Positions 16,501-53,900 of a stretch of 64,000 bases of DNA are shown here, in pieces. Location: contig NC_088305.1 in NCBI RefSeq assembly GCF_032854445.1, positions 26,374,628 to 26,438,627 on the forward strand, in the 5' to 3' direction. This DNA comes from Liolophura sinensis (Eukaryota; Mollusca; Polyplacophora; Chitonida; Chitonidae). Under the pieces are notes generated by a model. That model made no database searches. It was given only the letters and a program-made list of their open reading frames with translations, and was not told the DNA's origin. The translations under genes and the position numbers were made by a program. The stretch's first letter is position 1. The number at the start of each line of letters is the position of its first letter.

Positions 16501-16575
16501 TCCACATCTTCGGGAATTCTTCCATTCCCTGCTGACAGATTCCACCTGACGGTACCCTGTACACTCCCTGCAAGG

Positions 16576-16933
16576 ATGAAACTCTCACCTCTCCTATTCC
16601 TGGCTGCCATTTTGCTGTGTGTTCATCTCAACGAAGGTCGACTTGTTCTGAGAGTCTCGAGCATCCTCCGGTCGTCAAGTGGAGGCACGAATTGGGCAGA
16701 TAAGCTACAGAAATGGATGGAAGCACGACGTCAACTCGCCAAGGAGAACAACGCCTTGGCGGAGACCACCGGAGATGAGGATGCCAAAGATCCCGCGGAA
16801 AATGAGGACGAACTGCCGCAAAACGTCGATGTCGAAGATGATGTCGATGACCACGAAGAAGACGACATGGAAACCCGACGCCGGAAGTGGCTGGTTTACG
16901 CTCGTCTGAGAGGGAGCAACAGTTTTTCGTCAA
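16576..16933 (+). CDS. Precursor A exon 1
   Basis: 358 bp encoding signal peptide, pro-region, RRRK and WLVYARLRG. It ends TCAA|GTATAG in phase 1. Length and phase equal those of exon 1 in the paralogue at 23044-23401. Confidence 0.8.
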
Positions 16934-17917
16934 GTATAGTCAACCATTTTATGTCCAGTGAATAACGTAGATTTGTTTTAGAGTTTACTGCCAAAGTTGT
17001 CTGTTAGGCACTAGCAAAATCACGAGTTCGAATATCGCATCCATTATGATTAATGTTTTTTTCTTTCTTAATTTACTGTAGGACTGCTATCTGCTCTCCT
17101 GAAGAAAGCAAAAACGCACGCGAAGATTCTGTTGGAGAAAATCCGGGAAAAATATGGTAAAGAGCACATGGTGGAAGAAACTAGTAAGTCTGCATTCTCT
17201 GTTATCACACAACAACCATAAACGCGATTCCTTCGACCACAAAGCGGAACTCATGCGTCAGTTCGATAATATGCTAAACAGCTTACTGATTCAATGTTGC
17301 ATGATTACGTGTTTTGTCCATCAAGTAACACGATTCAATACAAAAATGTGTAATTCAGGAGAGGATTGAAATTAAATCCAAGCAGCTCTTATTTGTATTT
17401 AATGAAAATGAAAAGTAAAAAAAAAAAATTCGGTTTCACACGTTATTTATATGGTTCATAATGACCACCGTAGAATTGAAACTTTTGATCCTACATAAAA
17501 ATCTAAAAACAGTAGATGTAGGTCACGAGTGTAGTACACGTTAATGGGGGTCTTCCTGCGGACGCCTACTGTCTTCCTTACACTTTAACACTGGATTACA
17601 TTTATGGACTTTCGCGAAAACTTTGCGACGCAATTTGGGTTCCGCAACGTCAGCTGCATCAAAATATCTTGGCATGAAAGTGTCTTATGAATAAATCAGT
17701 TAGGTTTTATTCCAACTGTCCTGGTAAATGTTTAAATAGTAGTGTTTTGACACCCCTGGCATCATGTTTTGACACCCCTAGTATCATGTCATCACTTATG
17801 CCTTTTTGTCAAACTACACCCAAACTTCTCTGAGAGTTTGGCTGCACCTAATGTCAGCTTACTTCGTTTTTACCCCCAACAGCGCCCAGAATGACAACTG
17901 AGGATGAAATTCCATAA
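16576..17917 (+). CDS. Secreted precursor A: acidic pro-region plus cationic helix (three exons)
   Basis: Exons are 16576-16933, 17082-17183 and 17883-17917 (TAA). Introns fall in phase 1, and the total is 164 residues. The order is: signal peptide of about 21 residues (MKLSPLLFLAAILLCVHLNEG); a helical KLQKWMEARRQ segment; an Asp/Glu-rich pro-region (GDEDAKDPAENEDELPQNVD); a tetrabasic RRRK; then WLVYARLRG; and in exon 2 the cationic amphipathic LLSALLKKAKTHAKILLEKI. The arrangement matches precursors of helical antimicrobial or lytic peptides, where an acidic pro-region masks a cationic peptide released at a basic site. That role is inferred from layout only; the family is not one I recognise. 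An open frame extends upstream to 16246, but the paralogue and signal peptide fix the start at 16576. A neuropeptide precursor is an alternative. Confidence 0.75.
17082..17183 (+). CDS. Precursor A exon 2, cationic helix
   Basis: 102 bp between TTTACTGTAG and ACTA|GTAAGT, phase 1 at both ends. It encodes LLSALLKKAKTHAK, a Lys-rich amphipathic helix, continuing to KEHMVEET. An alternative donor TATG|GTAAAG at 17157 keeps the same phase but is weaker. Confidence 0.7.
17883..17917 (+). CDS. Precursor A exon 3 (terminal)
   Basis: 35 bp after the pyrimidine tract TTTTTACCCCCAACAG, encoding PRMTTEDEIP and then TAA. The phase agrees with exon 2. Short, so moderately certain. Confidence 0.55.
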
Positions 17918-21815: not shown

Positions 21816-23401
21816 CTAAAATAAAGATATAAGTTGATTTCTTTATCGATGTGTGAGGAAGCCATGCACATACCTGGTTCAGCGACAGGAGCTTCCAGTG
21901 GAGCTCTGAGAGGTGCTTCACCAATTTGTTCTTTGCCACCTGTATTTTCCGGAGGCGCTTCACCAATTGGTAATTTGACTTCTGTATTTTCCCTTTCAGG
22001 ATTTTGATTCTGCTTCATTGCTACCCACATCTGCTGAGAGTGTGTCTTGACTTTTTTAAGTAGCGCAGACAGCAGACCTGTGAAGATCGAAAGCACATAA
22101 TATTGATAAATACGGAATTTAAATGGCCTATTTACACCATGTGAGCCGGTGCATTTTCACACAATAATACGATACCAATGAATATGTATGATTTCTTAAT
22201 GCCATGGCAGGTCGGTCTTTTCACAGTGGAAGCCGAATAGTGTCCGAGTGACACCATCGCTCTTCCACAGACGCCCAGTCTAGTCAGAGGCACTGGCCAA
22301 AGCCCTGTCGTTTACAGCGAGACAGATGCCTTAAGATGACTGAGCCACCACGGGCCGCTGTATAACAACGGGTTCCCGGTGTTTATGAGAGATTAGTTTC
22401 AACCTGACCACAGGGTGTCATCGGTATGCTTATATGCGTTGTTTATGGATACCTTCATATCATTCCTTATAACATTCAGGTGAGCAAGCGAAGTTTGAAA
22501 CTACGGCCTAGAGGGTGTTCGCTTTTCATTGCGGTGAGTTTCGGTCTCGGTACAACACTGTTCTTCTCTATGTACCGAATCGTGGAGAAATCATGAAATG
22601 AAACTTTGAGCTTTGAAATATCTGAATCCTTTGAAAGGCAAACAAAGGAAAATGCTGGAAAACCCATTAAAATCGAGAGGATGTAACGGAGTTTCTGTCC
22701 GTATTGATACTAATACTTTCGCCTGGGCATCGCTGTGTTCAAGTTGAGATTACTTTTTGGTTGCCACAAACAGCTGTATATGACCCTCTGTCTAACTGTT
22801 CGCTGCTCTGTCAGCCAGTGGGTTGTCAGACTTTCCACACTCTGTCTTTTAACATGGGTCAGCGAGCCTGAGTTTTTGCATCATGTGAGCCATGCATTCA
22901 CTTATCGAGGGGCCTTGGTGTAAAACGACATCGATTTTTTGCAATATGTCGATACGCGATATTTTTTCGATACGACAAATTTCCGCTTGTTTAAATATGG
23001 TTTTATCAGAAACAATTTAACTTGAAATTAAACAAAATCATACCCGAAGAACAAGTGTGGCCTCCTCGTAGACGAACGTAGACTAACCACTTTCGGCGTC
23101 GAGTTTCCTTGTCGTCAGCTGAGTCTTCGTCGACGTCATCTTCGACATCGACATTTTTCGGCAGTTCGTCCTCCTCTTCAGCGGGATCTTTGGCATCCTC
23201 ATCTCCCGTGGTCTCTGCCAAGGCGTTATTCACACTGGCGAACTGACGTCGTGCATCCATCCATTTCTGTAGCTTTTCTGCCCAACTTGTGCCTCCACTT
23301 GACGGCCGGAGTATGTTGGACACCTTCAGGATCAGTCGGCCTTCGTTGACGTGGACGCACATCAAAACAGCGGCGAGGAACAGTAGAGGTGTGAGCTTCA
23401 T
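21766..23401 (-). CDS. Secreted precursor B, inverted paralogue of A (three exons)
   Basis: Exons in transcription order are 23401-23044, 22077-21874 and 21815-21766 (TAA), joined in phase 1, for 203 residues. Exon 1 closely matches paralogue A: signal peptide MKLTPLLFLAAVLMCVHVNEG, then LQKWMDARRQ, ALAETTGDEDAKDPAE, NVDVEDDVDED, ETRRRKWLVYVRLRG. Exon 2 starts with the same LLSALLKKVKTH but then diverges to QQMWVAMKQNQ and a Pro/Glu-rich stretch with IGEAP repeated. The predicted last exon is short and basic (AKIRKKRIRN). The gene is convergent with A, about 3.8 kb between stop codons. The function is inferred to be a processed cationic peptide precursor, as for A; the family is not recognised. 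Confidence 0.75.
21874..22077 (-). CDS. Precursor B exon 2
   Basis: 204 bp, twice the length of the paralogous exon, between ATCTTCACAG and CCAG|GTATGT. It encodes LLSALLKKVKTHSQQMW and then an acidic/Pro-rich tail with two IGEAP motifs. Confidence 0.7.
23044..23401 (-). CDS. Precursor B exon 1
   Basis: 358 bp, ending TCGG|GTATGA in phase 1. Signal peptide, acidic pro-region and RRRK site are all conserved with paralogue A. An upstream in-frame ATG at 23425 would add eight residues (MGISPTGS), but the paralogue supports 23401. Confidence 0.8.
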
Positions 23402-23472
23402 GCTGCCAGTAGGAGAGATACCCACAGGACTATGTCTTAGTGCAGGGTGTAAAGAAAGTCTGGAATCGTGGG

Positions 23473-26654: not shown

Positions 26655-27340
26655 GCCTTTCAGCACACGGTTACACTCAGCACACGGTTACATTACAATC
26701 AGTACACGGCTAGATTACATTCAGTACACGGTTACATTACATTCAGTACACGGCTACATTATACATTCAGCACACGGTTACATTACATTCAGTACGCGGT
26801 TACATAACATTCAACACATGGTTACATTCAGTACACGGTTACACTACATTCAGTACACGGTTACATTACATTCAGTACACGGTTACATTACATTCAGTAC
26901 ACGGCTACATTACATTCAGTACACGGTTACATTACATTCAGTACACGGCTACATTAAATTCAGTATACGGTTACATTACATTCAGTACACGGCTACATTC
27001 CATTCAGTACGCGGTTACATTACATTCAGTACACGGTTACATTACATTCAGTACACGGCTACATTACATTCAGTACACGGCTACATTACATTCAGTACAC
27101 GGTTACATTATATTCAGTACACGGTTACATTACATTCAGTACACGGCTACATTCCATTCAGTACGCGGTTACATTACATTCAGTACACGGTTACATTACA
27201 TTCAGTACACGGTTACATTACATTCAGTACACGGCTACATTACATTCAGTACACGGTTACATTACATTCAGTACACGGCTACATTACATTCAGCACACGG
27301 TTACATTACATTCAGTACACGACTACATTAAAGTTGCAGT
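26655..27340 (+). repeat. 22-bp minisatellite, about 31 units
   Basis: The unit is 'TTCAGTACACGGTTACATTACA' with an alternating CGGTT/CGGCT position. A 154-bp (seven-unit) higher-order block, marked by 'ctacattccattcagtacgc', occurs at about 26993 and 27147. Three units make 22 codons, so the array is open as a 264-codon frame by arithmetic alone. Confidence 0.95.
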
Positions 27341-28188
27341 ACATACAGGGAATATCTCGTTATTCAACTGGACCCGTTCTTTTGATACGTTTGGATATTT
27401 GAATTGTTATGTGCACAACTACCGTCAGCTTCTAAATTTAGCTTGCCCACTGTTTACATATGCTAAGTTCAGGGCCTGCTGTCTGCCTCTGCCTTAGAAT
27501 GTTCCAGAATACGCTCAGTTCGATGCCTGTTTGTTTACATCAAGTGTTCAGGAATTTTCTTATTCTAGACAATTCCACCAGGCTATATAAGACCTATGAA
27601 AGCAGGTCAAAGGAGGAGAAAGGAGAGTTATTGAGAGTTTTGGATGCTTTCGCTGTGTGTTACTTTAGTAGGCCTTTTGTGCTGAATTTTGGTGTCCTTT
27701 ATAGCCTCTGGCTTTGTTATATCCTATCTCCACCGAGCACTTGTTCAGTCTGAACTTGTATATTTAATTTGTGCTCTTGTGTACACAGTGCTTATTAGTA
27801 CACGGACCCTGTCTATGGAATTTTGTGTATATTTCGTCCATACACTCAGTGGATTTTCCCTCTTGTGAATTTGCCTCTGAGCATTTATGCCTGTGTGGTA
27901 CATATTGTGGCATATATGCGTCTGTTTGGACTGGACACCGGTTGTACATGTCAGTACTTTAGTATTTGTATAGATACTGCTATCCTTTCTTGTTAAACTT
28001 AAGTACTTCTTATTATCTGTTCTTGTTAAAGCTAATAAATTGTTGTAAAATAAAATCTGCTGGTTTTGGTTACTTTTTTGTGCGGCTAAACTGTCGTGTA
28101 TTTGTAACAAGCCATCTCTTTATAATACAGACAGTTTGGGTCGTAACGGAATAAACTGTATGCAAATATTTACATAAAGAAAACTTAC
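27341..28188. other. Non-coding stretch beside the Ser-rich gene
   Basis: This should contain downstream exons of the minus-strand gene starting at 28381, but I found no convincing acceptor. Several short frames on both strands look like chance. Confidence 0.35.
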
Positions 28189-31009: not shown

Positions 31010-33690
31010 AAAAAGATCTCAACGCTTTGACTGGCCGACACCTGTTAAAAGACAGGATGTCAGACCTTTGACGGGCCGACACCTGTTAAAAGACAGGATG
31101 TCAAACCTTTGACAGGCCGACCGGTGTTAAAAGACAGGATGTCAGATCTTTGACTGGCCGACCCCCTTTGAAAGATAGGATGTCAGACCTTTGACAGGCC
31201 GACCGGTATTAAAACACAGGATGTCAGAACTTTGACAGGCCGACCGGTGTTAAATGATAGGATGTCAAACCTTTGACAGGCCGACCGGTGTTAAAAGATA
31301 GGATGTCAGACGTTTGACAGGCGGACCGGTGTTAAAAGATAGGATGTCAGACCTTTGACTGGCCGACCGGTGTAAAAAGATAGGATGTCAGACGTTTGGC
31401 TGGCCGACCTTTGTTAAAAGATATGATGTCAGACCTTTGACTGGCCGACCGGTATTAAAAGACAAGATGCCAGACCTTTGACTGACCGACCGGTGTAAAA
31501 AGATAGGATGTCAGACCTTTGACAGGCCGACCAGTGTTAAAAGATATGATGTCAGATCTTTGACTGGCCGACCTGTGTTAAAAGACAGGATGTCAAACCT
31601 TTGACAGGCCGTCCTGTATTAAAAGACAGGATGTCAGACCTTTGACTGGCTGAAGCCTGTTAAAAGACAGGATGCCAGACCTTTGACAGGCTGACCGGTG
31701 TTAAAAGACAGGATGTCAGACGTTTGACTGGCCGACCCCTGTTAAAAGATATGATGTCAGATCTTTGACTGGCTGACCCCTGTTAAAAGACAGGATGCCA
31801 GACCTTTGACAGGCCGACCGGTGTTAAAAGATAGGATGTCAGACGTTTGACTGGCCGACCTGTGTGAAAAGATAGGATGTCAAACATTTGACTGGCCGAC
31901 CGGTATTAAAAGATAGGATGTCAGACGTTTGACTGTCCGACCGGTGTTAAAAAATAGGATGTTAAACCTTTGACTGGTCGACCGGTATTAAAAGATAGGA
32001 TGTCAGGTCTTTGAGTGGCCGACCGGTATTAAATGATATGATGTAAGACCTTTGACTGACTGACCCTGTTAAAAAATAGGATGTCAGACCTTTGACTGGC
32101 CGATGGGTGTAAAAAGACAGGATGTCAGACGTTTGACAGGCCGACCGGTGTTAACAATCTTAAACCTTTCACTGGCCAACCTGTGTTAAAAGGTATGATG
32201 TCAAACCTTTGACAGGCCGACCGGTGTTAAAATACAGGATGCCAAACCTTTGACTGGCCGACCGGTGTTAAAATACAGGATGTCAGACCTTTGACGGTCC
32301 GACCTCAGTTAAAAGATAGAATGTCAAACCTTTGACTGGCCGATCTGTGTTAAAAGATAGGATATCAGACCTTTGACAGGCTGACCCCTATTAAAAGACA
32401 GGAGGTCACACCTTTGACTTGCCGATTTGTGTTAAAAGACAGGATGTCAGACGTTTGACTGGCCTACCACTGTTTAAAGACAGGATGTTAAACCTTTGAC
32501 TGACTGCCCCGGGTTAAAAGATAGGATGTCAGACCTTTGGTCGATTTGTGTTAAAAGATAGAACGTGAAATCTTTCACAGGCCGACCTGTGTTAAAAGAC
32601 AGGATGTCTTGCCTTTGACAGGCCGACCTGTGTTAAAAGATAGGGTGTCAATCCTTTGACTACCTGCCCCGTGTTAAAAGATAGGATGTCAGACGTTTGA
32701 CTGACCGCCCCGGGTTAAAAGATAGAATGTCAGACCTTTGACTGGCCTACCAATGTTAAAAGACAGGATGTCAGACCTTTGACAGGTCGACCCCTGTTAA
32801 AAGATAAGATGTCAAACCCTTGACTGGCCGATTTGTGTTAAAGGACAGGATGTCAGACCTTTGACTGGCTGATCCGTGTTAAAAGACATGATGTTAAACC
32901 TGTGGCCGACCGGTGTTAAAAGATAAGATCTCAAATCTTTGACCGGCCGACATGTGTTAAAAGATAGAATGTGACACCTTTGACAGGTCGATCTGTGTTA
33001 AAAGACAGGATGTCAAACCTTTGACTGGCCGGTCCATGTTAAAAGATAGAATGTCAGATCTTTGACAGGCCGACCTGTGTTAAAAGACAGGATGTCAGAC
33101 CTTTGACTGGCCGAACCCGATGTTAAAAGACAGGATGGGAGACCTTTGACAGGCCGACCGGTGTTAAAAGATAGGATGTCAGGCCTTTGACTGACTGCCC
33201 CCTGTTAAAGGCATGATGTCAGAACTTTTGGCCGATTTGTGTTAGAAGATAGAACGTCAAACCTTTGACAGGCCGATCGGTGTTAAAAGATAGGATGATA
33301 AACCTTTGACTGACTGTTAAGAGATGGGATGTAAGACCTGGCCGATTTGTGTTAAAAGATAGGGATTTCACACTTTTGACAGGCCGACCGGTGTTAAAGG
33401 ACAGGATGTCAGACCTTTGGCCGATTTGTGCTAAAAGATAGAACGTCAAACCTTTGACAGGCCGATCGGTGTTAAAAGATAGGATGATAAACCTTTGACA
33501 GGCCTACTTGTTTTAAAAGATAGGATGCCAAACCTTCGACTGACCGACCTGTGTTAAAAGATAGGGTGTCAAATCTTTGACAGGCCGACCTGTGTTAAAA
33601 TATAAGATATCAGATCTTTGACTGGCCGACCCGTGTTAAAGGATAAGATGTCAAACCTTTGACTGGCACACATGTGTTAAAAGACAGGAT
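31010..33690 (+). repeat. Satellite zone 1: diverged 41-bp units
   Basis: About 65 imperfect units of 'GTTAAAAGACAGGATGTCAG' plus 'ACCTTTGACTGGCCGACC'. Units vary by substitutions and small deletions, so this is the older part of the array. Confidence 0.95.
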
Positions 33691-34495
33691 GTCAAACCTG
33701 TGACTGGCCAACCCGTGTTAACAGCCATGGGATGTCAAACCTTTGACTGGCCAACCCGTGTTAAGAGCCATGGGATGTCAAACCTTTGGCTGGCCAACCC
33801 GTGTTAACAGCCATGGGATGTCAAACCTTTGGCTGGCCAACCCGTGTTAACAGCCATGGGATGTCAAACCTTTGGCTGGCCAACCCGTGTTAACAGCCAT
33901 GGGATGTCAAACCTTTGGCTGGCCAACCCGTGTTAACAGCCATGGGATGTCAAACCTTTGACTGGCCAACCCGTGTTAACAGCCATGGGATGTCAAACCT
34001 TTGACTGGCCAACCCGTGTTAACAGCCATGGGATGTCAAACCTTTGGCTGGCCAACCCGTGTTAACAGCCATGGGATGTCAAACCTTTGGCTGGCCAACC
34101 CGTGTTAACAGCCATGGGATGTCAAACCTTTGACTGGCCAACCCGTGTTAACAGCCATGGGATGTCAAACCTTTGACTGGCCAACCCGTGTTAACAGCCA
34201 TGGGATGTCAAACCTTTGACTGGCCAACCCGTGTTAACAGCCATGGGATGTCAAACCTTTGACTAGCCAACCCGTGTTAACAGCCATGGGATGTCAAACC
34301 TTTGACTGGCCGACCCGTGTTAACAGCCATGGGATGTCAAACCTTTGACTGGCCGACCCGTGTTAACAGCCATGGGATGTCAAACCTTTGACTGGCCGAC
34401 CCGTGTTAACAGCCATGGGATGTCAAACCTTTGACTGGCCAACCCGTGTTAACAGCCATGGGATGTCAAACCTTTGACTAGCCAACTCGTGTTAA
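33690..34495 (+). repeat. Satellite zone 2: homogeneous 43-bp units
   Basis: About 18 almost identical units of 'GTTAACAGCCATGGGATGTC' plus 'AAACCTTTGACTGGCCAACC' and CGT. Each contains the dyad GTCAAACCTTTGAC. It derives from the 41-bp type by a change to CAGCCATGG, and its uniformity implies recent amplification. Confidence 0.95.
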
Positions 34496-35199
34496 CAGAT
34501 ACAGAATGTGAATAATGTGGCTGTCCGAGTGACAAACTAAGCCTTCACATTCTTTTGTTCGGGATCGAAGATGGCCGCGCAAGTTCAACATAAACTGGTT
34601 GACAGGCTTATTTATACTATATATGCACAATAGCAATTGTGGATCATATCAGCTTCACTCGAAAGTAGTCCCGGCCAAACCTGTTGGTTACACGCTGGCA
34701 AATGATTTTTATATTCAAGTGCGTTAGTGGATTTGAAGAAGGCAATTAGCGATCGAAGTCTTTGCCTCCCCTTTTTTTTCCTGATCTTTTCCAAATCAAA
34801 CTGGAAATGGAAAGAAATATTTAAGAGGCCCGAACACATTATTGACAATTAAGTTGAGTTGCGTTTGAGTTCCTGGATACAATGCCAAACGAAGTGTGAT
34901 AGAAATGAAAGGCCATTATAAACGAGGCTTCCTTTGTTGTCGTTTGTAGCCACTTCCTCCCAATAAATAAAGAATCTTCTAAGGCGTATTTTCAGACAGT
35001 ATTTAACGGTGTCTTGTCAGATTTCCGACAGCATTTACAAATACACTGCATTTTAACATAATTCCCGATTTGACACGGTGCTCATAGCTTAGAAACCTGA
35101 CAGTTCTCATATACATAAAATATTCTAGATTATAGTAAAAACCGTCATAAATTTATTTAGGGGTAAAAGTCGCTATTTCCATTCATGTGTGTATACTAA
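34496..35199. other. Intergenic, nothing recognised
   Basis: No gene or repeat identified. Confidence 0.5.
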
Positions 35200-48445: not shown

Positions 48446-48630
48446 TTATTGTATCGTATACTCTGTTGTGAGTGTGGTAAGCGACACGAGATCAGCTTCG
48501 TTAGCTAACTCTGGCACCCAAACTTTGGCAGAGAATCTATTATTAGCAGTCAGTTTTGGTAACTTGTCGTCTACCCATGACAGAGAATGTCCCAACAAAC
48601 CGCCATCTTGCTCGTCCGTGGATAAAACAT
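48446..48630 (-). CDS. PTF1A: PTF1A exon 2, C-terminal domain
   Basis: The acceptor TTTGGTTTCCCAG precedes AT GTT TTA. The first two bases complete the codon begun by the G at the end of exon 1, giving Asp. It encodes the conserved GHSLSW and AKVW motifs and ends TTEYTIQ-TAA. Confidence 0.9.
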
Positions 48631-50365
48631 CTGGGAAACCAAACAAAATAAGAAATAAATATAAAAAAAATACCAAAAAAGCTCAATGGAATTAAATCAA
48701 AATCGGCATAGATCCACTCTACTTCTCAGCCAGAGACATGACAGTTTGATAGATACCAACTAAAACTAAACTGTAGGCGGATCCAATCTTGGAATTATCG
48801 ACTTGGAACGCCCCTTTATGGTTTATGAGTGGTGTGCCAGCGTCGGACTTGATGTATAGATTCTCCTCATATAAGGTGCAGCATTGGAACTTTTATCTTC
48901 TCATGATCATCAGTATCAAAATAAACACCGTCATCATCAACATCATCATTAACATCAAATAGCTCACCTAACAAGTTACACCTGATTTTTTTTCTTCTCA
49001 TCATCTTCAGTTTCAAAATAAACAACGTCATCATCAACATCATCATTAACATCAAATAGCTCACCTGACAAGTTACACCTGATTGTTTTCTTCTCATCAT
49101 CATCAGTATCAAAATAAACACCGTCATCATCAACATCATCATTAACATCAAATAGCTCACCTAACAAGTTACACCTGATTTTTTTTCTTCTCATCATCTT
49201 CAGTTTCAAAATAAACAACGTCATCATCAACATCATCATTAACATCAAATAGCTCACCTGACAAGTTACACCTGATTTTTTTCTTCTCATCATCATCAGT
49301 ATCAAAATAAACACAGTCATCATCAACATCATCATTAACATCCAATAGCTCACCTGACAAGTTACACCTGATTTTTTTCTTCTCATCATCATCAGTATTA
49401 AAATAAACAACGTCATCATCAACAGCACCGTTAACATCCAATAGCTCACCTGACAAGTTACACCTGATTTTTTTCTTCTCATCATCATCAGTGTCTAAAT
49501 CAGCATTGTCATCATCAACATCATCATTAACATCAAACAGCTCACCTGACAAGTTACACCTGATTTTTTTCTTCTCATCATCATCAGTGTCTAAATCAGC
49601 ATTGTCATCATCAACAGCACCGTTAACATCAAACAGCTCACCTGACAAGTTACACCTGATTTTTTTCTTCTCATCATCATCAGTGTCTAAATCAGCATTG
49701 TCATCATCAACAGCACCGTTAACATCAAACAGCTCACCTGACAAGTTACACCTGATTTTTTTCTTCTCATCATCATCAGTGTCTAAATCAGCATTGTCAT
49801 CATCAACAGCACCGTTAACATCAAACAGCTCACCTGACAAGTTACACCTGACTTTTCTCTTCACATTATCATCAGTATTAAAATCCGCATTGTCATCATC
49901 AACAACATCGTTAACAACAAACAGCTCACCTGACAAATTACACCTGACAATAATCTTCTCCGCCCGTTGTCCCATAGGGTTATTTTTGCTGTCTGCCCCA
50001 CACTGGTCGTACTTTTCCAGCAGCTCCCCAAGGTATCCGATATATCGGATAGCCAATCGAAGTGTGTCGACTTTTGACAGCCTCCGGTCTCCGTTCACCT
50101 GGGTGGGGATGCACGTCCTTAAGGTGTCAAAGGCGTCATTGATCGACCTCATGCGCCGTCTCTCCCGCATGTTTGCCGCTCGTCTCTGCTCCATTCGCTT
50201 CACGGGCTTCTTAAGTTTTCGACCGAGATCGAATGAGTTTATACCAATGTTTTCCTGATCGGATAAATTTGAGCACGGCGAATCGAGAGGTACGTCGCAG
50301 TAACCTTCCATATTGTCGCAGAATTCCAAGAAGTCTTCATCTAAAGTGCACAGAAAACTCTCCAT
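48446..50365 (-). CDS. PTF1A: PTF1A-type bHLH transcription factor (two exons)
   Basis: Exons 50365-49930 and 48630-48446 join in phase 1 and give 206 residues. PTF1A binds E-boxes with class I bHLH partners and recruits RBPJ-type proteins; in vertebrates it specifies pancreas and inhibitory neurons. The bHLH (about residues 57-112) runs [52 protein letters not shown], close to the PTF1A group. The C-terminal conserved block [10 protein letters not shown] followed by AKVWVPEL in exon 2 is diagnostic for PTF1A rather than FERD3L or HAND. The intron falls between KIIVRCNLS and DVLSTDEQ, the position I recall for vertebrate PTF1A. The start codon has a good context (CAAAATGG), and a TATA box lies at 50646. 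The donor is embedded in a 96-bp tandem array, so longer isoforms are possible. Confidence 0.92.
48890..49990 (-). repeat. 96-bp tandem array duplicating the PTF1A exon 1 end and splice donor
   Basis: On the minus strand each unit contains TGTAACTTGTCAG|GTGAGCT followed by a GAT/GAC-rich stretch. The last exonic bases of the 11 donor copies would be 49930, 49834, 49738, 49642, 49546, 49450, 49354, 49258, 49161, 49065 and 48968. Spacing is 96 bp except for two 97-bp steps, each caused by one extra T in a T-run. The first copy is the authentic exon boundary. Copies 9 and 11 read TTAG|GTGAGC, still a good donor. Units near the exon (first two) are the most diverged; the middle ones are nearly identical. 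Confidence 0.95.
49169..49929 (-). other. Read-through frame of acidic 32-residue repeats after PTF1A exon 1
   Basis: If the first donor is skipped, the reading frame stays open for 252 codons beyond the donor, built of [13 protein letters not shown], a DDD-rich run and TDDDEKKK in 32-residue units. It ends at TAA 49169-49171, after a 97-bp unit shifts the frame. It could be intron, or alternative exon extension. Being open is expected for a 96-bp unit without stops, so this alone does not show coding. Confidence 0.5.
49930..50365 (-). CDS. PTF1A: PTF1A exon 1, bHLH
   Basis: 436 bp from ATG to GTCAG|GTGAGC. It encodes the acidic N-terminus ([15 protein letters not shown]), the whole bHLH, and KIIVRCNLS, which corresponds to the conserved post-bHLH motif of PTF1A. 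Confidence 0.92.
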
Positions 50366-53839: not shown

Positions 53840-53843
53840 ATAT

Positions 53844-53898
<55 letters not shown>

Positions 53899-53900
53899 TT
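53840..53900 (+). repeat. (TTTA)n microsatellite
   Basis: About 15 uninterrupted TTTA units. Confidence 0.95.

Follow-up and report, generated by a model that had tools for sequence, protein, structure and literature searches.

Mirage minisatellites have been described in lancelets, where they occur in Adh3, in the globin genes BflGb6 and BflGb9, in TnC and in PGBD5 (PMC3087553, PMC3902484; the original Adh work is taken here via PMC3087553). In the sections of these two papers cited here, the genes concerned appear to be spliced regularly, judging from data on Adh3 and from RT-PCR of the globins, and one of them (PMC3087553) points out that cryptic splicing at the repeated signals could occur. 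Two further systems also combine tandem repeats with splice signals or exon boundaries. The 24-bp AGGT arrays of fission yeast and the ATP2A1 case offer AG|GT repeats as potential acceptor and donor, as set out in the cited part of PMC4974935, and in recent human paralogs boundary tandem repeats may alter gene structure, with transcripts that keep the repeat (PMC2812944, cited part).

Within a 64-kb window (the whole stretch of Liolophura DNA analysed), we compared with these systems a minus-strand array of eleven units at the start of the only intron of a PTF1A-like gene. As in the lancelet mirages, many of whose repeats are described as carrying splice signals, the chiton repeat spans an exon/intron boundary (given donor 1 as that boundary), and splice signals were present in 11 of its 11 units; we regard it as most probably a minisatellite within the intron, of the lancelet mirage kind. 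The edges of the BflGb6 cluster are reported to escape homogenization, as does chiton unit 1, and the two BflGb6 haplotypes given in the same part of that paper contain 6 and 3 units, against 11 in the chiton (PMC3087553). The chiton array differs in lying in another phylum and in having a unit length divisible by three that stays open through eight units, and this in-frame openness is what distinguishes it. Normal splicing is reported in the cited sections for the lancelet genes, whereas the chiton array is known here from sequence. Like the fission yeast and ATP2A1 cases it presents repeated AG|GT, but its intron most likely already existed and was lengthened, its unit holds intron sequence, and its pyrimidine tract is poor. 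The Rogers type of intron gain, a new intron at a repeat, does not describe the locus, since donor 1 sits at an intron position that appears common to relatives. The human paralog repeats, according to the part of the report cited, are supported by transcripts, whereas the evidence for the chiton array is genomic. We found no report, among the openly licensed papers listed, of a mirage outside lancelets, molluscs included; the chiton array is possibly the first molluscan case to be described, and it suggests that such arrays are not confined to lancelets.

The reading that we prefer, at a probability of roughly two in three, is that of an intronic mirage minisatellite with splicing mainly from donor 1 and frame-tolerant leakage to other donors. 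A segment of 19 nt from the very end of exon 1 and 77 nt from the start of the gene's sole intron would have been tandemly amplified in the Liolophura lineage, yielding an 11-unit minisatellite within the intron. Donor 1 would be the ancestral 5' splice site and most likely the source of most mRNA, which would encode a 206-aa protein, and donors 2-11 would be by-products copied along with the unit. Because the unit measures 96 nt (32 codons) and is open through unit 8, leakage to donors 2-8 would be tolerable, its sole effect being to place acidic modules of 32 residues each between the bHLH side of the protein and its C-terminal motifs, and truncation would be confined to donors 9-11. The choice of donor, the tolerance of leakage and the lineage-specific timing are the parts of this account that we infer.

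Gene model and relatives

The PTF1A-like gene was modelled as two exons on the minus strand, with the ATG at 50365, the end of exon 1 at 49930, the acceptor at 48630 and the end of the stop codon at 48446. On translation, joining 49930 to 48630 gave a 206-aa product that is PTF1A-like at both ends. The features of the gene are listed below, with the coordinates of the bHLH domain and of the two C-terminal motifs obtained by arithmetic.

48446..50365, minus strand: PTF1A-like bHLH gene, ATG to stop codon (spliced translation of 206 aa and Haliotis asinina match)
49930..50365, minus strand: coding part of exon 1, 436 nt, ending in phase 1 (spliced translation)
50030..50188, minus strand: bHLH domain, residues 60-112 (PF00010, E 2.4e-21)
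48631..49929, minus strand: intron from donor 1, 1299 nt, or 337 nt if from donor 11 (computed)
48446..48630, minus strand: coding part of exon 2, with the acceptor TTTGGTTTCCCAG|ATG at 48630 (pyrimidine content and conserved motifs downstream)
48575..48592, minus strand: GHSLSW motif (nearly invariant alignment columns)
48509..48529, minus strand: AKVWVPE motif, counterpart of vertebrate AKVWTPEDPR (alignment)

With a pyrimidine content of 0.80, the acceptor at 48630 ranked top of the YAG sites that were scored from the ATG to the stop, and both it and exon 2 seem well founded. Exon 2 carries GHSLSW and AKVWVPE, which together form the C-terminal signature of the PTF1A family, and the bHLH domain (PF00010) is also present. 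AKVWVPE presumably marks the site at which vertebrate W298 contacts RBPJ, an assignment supported by published W298A work.

The homologue search returned 151 proteins, the best 120 of which were used in downstream comparisons. Among these best 120 of 151, the best named match was a Haliotis asinina "pancreas transcription factor 1 subunit alpha-like" protein (57% identity, 99% query coverage), and the closest relative was P0001 (92% identical over 68% of the query). In a tree of 24 rows, the window gene fell inside a 13-row PTF1A-like clade (support 100/100) separate from canonical PTF1A and made up of the window gene, ten named mollusc sequences, the long-branched annelid Paralvinella and P0001. 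The canonical PTF1A-type sequences of Haliotis rufescens (P0047), Owenia, sea slugs, lancelet, bird and fish lay outside it. The bHLH loop also differs from that of canonical PTF1A (16 versus 15 residues), so that the gene shows neither the canonical loop nor the canonical grouping. Judged by tree and loop, it is a member of a divergent, mainly molluscan PTF1A-like clade and not a canonical PTF1A orthologue, and the preliminary description's label of PTF1A therefore holds for the family (bHLH, GHSLSW, AKVWVPE) but not for canonical orthology. Because the tree contains two Haliotis species, one in each group, this further suggests that molluscs carry both paralogues, the canonical one and a divergent one with a longer loop.

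The 96-bp array and its donors

TRF reported one array at 48891-49947 (period 96, 11.0 copies, 94% matches, score 1613). The unit start was placed by hand so that the exonic part is 19 nt, approximately the last six codons of exon 1, and each unit then consists of 19 nt resembling the end of exon 1, followed by 77 nt (or 78 nt, for units 8 and 10) that resemble the beginning of the intron.

48891..49948, minus strand: boundary-spanning minisatellite, 11 units of 96 bp (TRF and unit alignment)
49180..49276, minus strand: unit 8, 97 bp, with an extra A that shifts the frame (unit alignment)
48987..49083, minus strand: unit 10, 97 bp, identical to unit 8 (unit alignment)
49924..49932, minus strand: donor 1, CAG|GTGAGC, last exon base 49930, taken as the ancestral 5' splice site (9-mer and relatives)
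49252..49836, minus strand: donors 2-8, all CAG|GTGAGC, in phase 1 with an open frame upstream (translation and 9-mers)
49169..49171, minus strand: TAA, first in-frame stop when the array is read through from exon 1 (translation)
48962..49163, minus strand: donors 9-11, beyond the in-frame stop, 9 and 11 being TAG|GTGAGC (translation and 9-mers)

Pairwise identity among the units was 82-100%, so the array is not a product of chance. Unit 1 was the most divergent (82-89% identical to the other units), units 3 and 4 were identical, and units 8+9 and 10+11 formed a 193-bp higher-order pair (48891-49276) in which units 9 and 11 were 97% identical; the unit-to-unit pattern reads as ordinary tandem-repeat turnover. 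Tandem arrays are easily mis-sized, and the copy number could in principle have been inflated or collapsed in assembly, but the unit differences are ordered and the higher-order pair is present. The assembly data in the cited part of PMC11068029 (PacBio HiFi, 14x, 8.77 Gb in 1.05 million reads), from the Liolophura japonica assembly that we take to be the window's origin, correspond by our own division to reads of about 8.3 kb each, which would span the 1.06 kb of the array. RNA-seq of Liolophura digestive gland, foot, gill, gonad and heart is also named in PMC11068029. An assembly artefact is thus highly improbable.

Eleven AG|GTGAGCT donors were located on the minus strand, one in each of the 11 units, with their last exon bases at 49930, 49834, 49738, 49642, 49546, 49450, 49354, 49258, 49161, 49065 and 48968 and a spacing of 96 in eight of the ten intervals and 97 in the other two. 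The donor 9-mer was CAG|GTGAGC in 9/11 and TAG|GTGAGC in 2/11 (units 9 and 11). Scored with a simple matrix, the array donors were the 11 top-scoring sites between start and stop (9.6-11.2, with the next site at 7.4). RNA structure that might hide donors was considered and rejected, as the z-scores of the 98-nt contexts of donors 1, 2, 6 and 11 (4 of the 11) ranged from -0.23 to 1.07, showing nothing unusual; an Rfam search gave no match at gathering scores.

Since every unit abuts CAG or TAG on GTGAGC, each interval is also a possible GT-AG intron of 96-97 nt, which allows for recursive splicing, in which each TTGT(C/T)AG|GTGAGC would serve as acceptor and regenerated donor, removal would proceed in 96-nt steps and an upstream choice would later be erased. 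However, the 20 nt before the AG were only 40-45% pyrimidine in units 2-11 and 55% at unit 1, compared with 80% at 48630, so the pyrimidine tract that would mark a recursive site before AG|GT is lacking, and we regard this course as extremely improbable.

The preferred reading, with donor 1 as the ancestral site, was examined in the relatives by a scan for the pre-junction motif among the best 120 of the 151 proteins, in which 40 had HSLSW, 53 did not, and 27 that lacked the pre-junction motif were left out. Many mollusc proteins among the 40 (e.g. P0002-P0004, P0006, P0008, P0010 and P0013) read RC..(S/T)|D..GHSLSW, which is the product of joining donor 1 to 48630; other HSLSW-bearing proteins (e.g. 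P0016, P0019, P0050 and P0072) differ at the junction point. Several of the 53 (e.g. P0032 and P0038-P0045) go on as ..SGK or ..TGK and never reach exon 2, endings that would be expected of genomic sequence entering the intron at G|GT in the same codon, although the figure of 53 is no count of read-through, as some of these proteins have the variant motifs HSLAW or HSLTW. These comparisons support the placement of donor 1 at the relatives' intron position, as deduced from their proteins rather than from DNA. P0001 runs past the donor for a single unit-like stretch, beyond which its sequence breaks off, at either a stop codon or a contig end, before any second unit; its tail scored 37.5 against unit 1, compared with a shuffled mean of 12.7, and 1 of 1000 shuffles reached 37.5.

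The preliminary description had placed a 96-bp unit across the boundary from within the last codons of exon 1, which TRF and the unit alignment bear out, and one authentic donor ahead of ten near-identical ones at 96-97 bp, which agrees with the donors located and the spacings measured; the authenticity of donor 1 is supported by relatives that join exon 2, or seem to enter the intron, at the same point. It had also called the arrangement unusual, and here some tempering is needed, as lancelet mirages are known and seven arrays (hand-picked from the TRF output at a period of at least 20 and at least about four units) fill 6,362 bp, or 9.9%, of the 64-kb window. Because minisatellite growth is common in the window, it is in itself no surprise that one of the arrays should meet an exon boundary; the boundary-spanning array as such stands.

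Reading frame, coding status and donor choice

Units 1-8 were open in the frame of exon 1, which continues open from exon 1 to 49172. Donors 1-8 are predicted to yield products of 206, 238, 270, 302, 334, 366, 398 and 430 aa, respectively, all remaining in phase 1 with the C-terminus of exon 2 intact and with 0-7 acidic 32-aa modules inserted. The open frame of units 1-8 and its later break are points beyond the preliminary description. What breaks the frame is the 97-bp length of unit 8, of which unit 10 is an exact copy, and a truncated product of 398 aa is predicted for donors 9-11, where the TAA precedes the junctions of donors 9, 10 and 11 by 8, 104 and 201 nt. Nonsense-mediated decay usually follows a 50-55 nt rule, by which the products of donors 10 and 11 would be targets. 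Array copy number could change the protein only if donors 2-8 are used.

With the frame open as far as 49172 and donor 8 as the last in-frame donor, the array might instead be constitutively exonic, the true exon 1 spanning units 1-7 up to donor 8. The intron position of relatives, which appears to lie at donor 1, the apparent end of the frame of P0001 after a single unit-like stretch and the flat substitution pattern among the units argue against this arrangement, which we consider very unlikely. Once the extra A had been removed from units 8 and 10, 22 of the 96 columns varied among the units, and the 34 parsimony changes were distributed as 9/14/11 over codon positions 1/2/3. Units 1-7 gave a pN/pS ratio of 0.71 and units 1-11 one of 0.92, in what is a blunt test, as wrong frame 2 gave 0.50-0.55 and wrong frame 1 gave 0.91-1.00. 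Under a simple model, 34 random changes would introduce no stop with a probability of 0.27, so that the openness of the frame alone says little. The exon part plus donor, 26 of the 96 columns, held 4 of the 34 changes (p = 0.052; p = 0.17 in a Fisher test on variable columns), which hints weakly at constraint. A coding repeat under selection is not supported by this flat pattern, although so coarse a test discriminates poorly.

Of 7985 candidates scored in a search with the read-through frame, 17 proteins remained, none of them aligned over more than 41% of the query; the set of five exon-end motifs occurred once in 18 of 127 proteins and more than once in none. The silence of the protein searches is weak, because the gene itself, at near 100% identity and in any form, was also not found in the homologue and read-through searches. 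Taken as a whole, the evidence leans towards the array not being coding, with no clear coding constraint among the units. Pfam matches of the 398-aa read-through frame to Zn_ribbon_5, Catalase-rel, zf-Sec23_Sec24 and LppM were taken as effects of repetition or composition; two of these four non-HLH matches exceeded the curated score (31 vs 29.3; 25.9 vs 25), and no single stretch passed alone.

The donors could also be genuinely alternative. Eight in-frame isoforms would then form a ladder, differing in whether they hold from 0 up to 7 of the acidic 32-aa modules between the bHLH region and the C-terminal co-factor motifs, and variation in copy number would alter the transcription factor. Donors 1-8 share their 9-mer and are in phase and open, the frame break is limited to the three distal donors, the exon-plus-donor part is slightly short of changes, and GA-rich stretches lie between the donors, all of which would fit such a ladder. 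Set against these points are the want of clear coding constraint, the end of P0001 after one unit-like stretch, the fact that none of the proteins returned bears the array (though the gene itself is also missing from them), and the extra sites of lancelet mirages, reported in the cited sections as occurring without aberrant mRNA (PMC3087553, PMC3902484). We judge the ladder rather unlikely, and distinctly unlikely the more specific proposal that eight equal in-frame donors combine with copy-number variation into a graded protein series, with the three distal donors as an off-route.

For the preferred reading, mainly donor-1 splicing, the ancestral position of that donor and, by analogy, the lancelet precedent would favour donor 1. 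Other observations run against it. Because 9 of the 11 donor 9-mers are identical, the donor signal itself gives donor 1 no edge, and all eight proximal units are open. Units 2-10 (nine units) carry GATGAGAAGAAAA, which we take to resemble a GA-rich splicing enhancer. Enhancers placed between competing donors favour the intron-proximal donor, according to the cited part of PMC5585400. The locus amounts to a natural duplicated-5'-splice-site experiment, with eleven donors, nine identical 9-mers, one acceptor, a known order and a countable readout, in which junction counts from one species could show whether position, exon context or enhancers decide the choice of donor. A unit length divisible by three could be what makes a boundary duplication tolerable.

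Other repeats and gene copies in the window

Further repeats were observed in the window. A minisatellite at 31025-34499 repeats a 41-bp unit, partly in a 43-bp form, about 85 times, another at 26671-27343 contains about 31 copies of a 22-bp unit and lies inside a 285-codon stop-free stretch on the plus strand, and a microsatellite at 53841-53900 is a perfect (TATT)15.

Inverted copies of a gene segment were found at 16568-16937 (plus strand) and 23040-23409 (minus strand), 370 nt long and 81% complementary, and the gene encodes a small acidic precursor, putatively secreted, in which RRRKW lies close to the end. The precursor from 16576-16953 (plus strand) had three relatives at E 1e-3, among them the L. 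sinensis protein P0126, and no Pfam family. A lancelet source of the window, considered in view of the mirage literature, was dropped, and the window is assigned to L. sinensis or a very close relative: the best named protein matches are molluscan, and P0126 showed exact matches of 120 residues (23401-23042, the minus-strand copy) and of 67 residues (a further exon within 22132-21857), which account for 187 of its 198 residues. For the final 11 residues of P0126 the window's frame at that place offers no continuation. The minus-strand copy matches L. sinensis LOC135478254.
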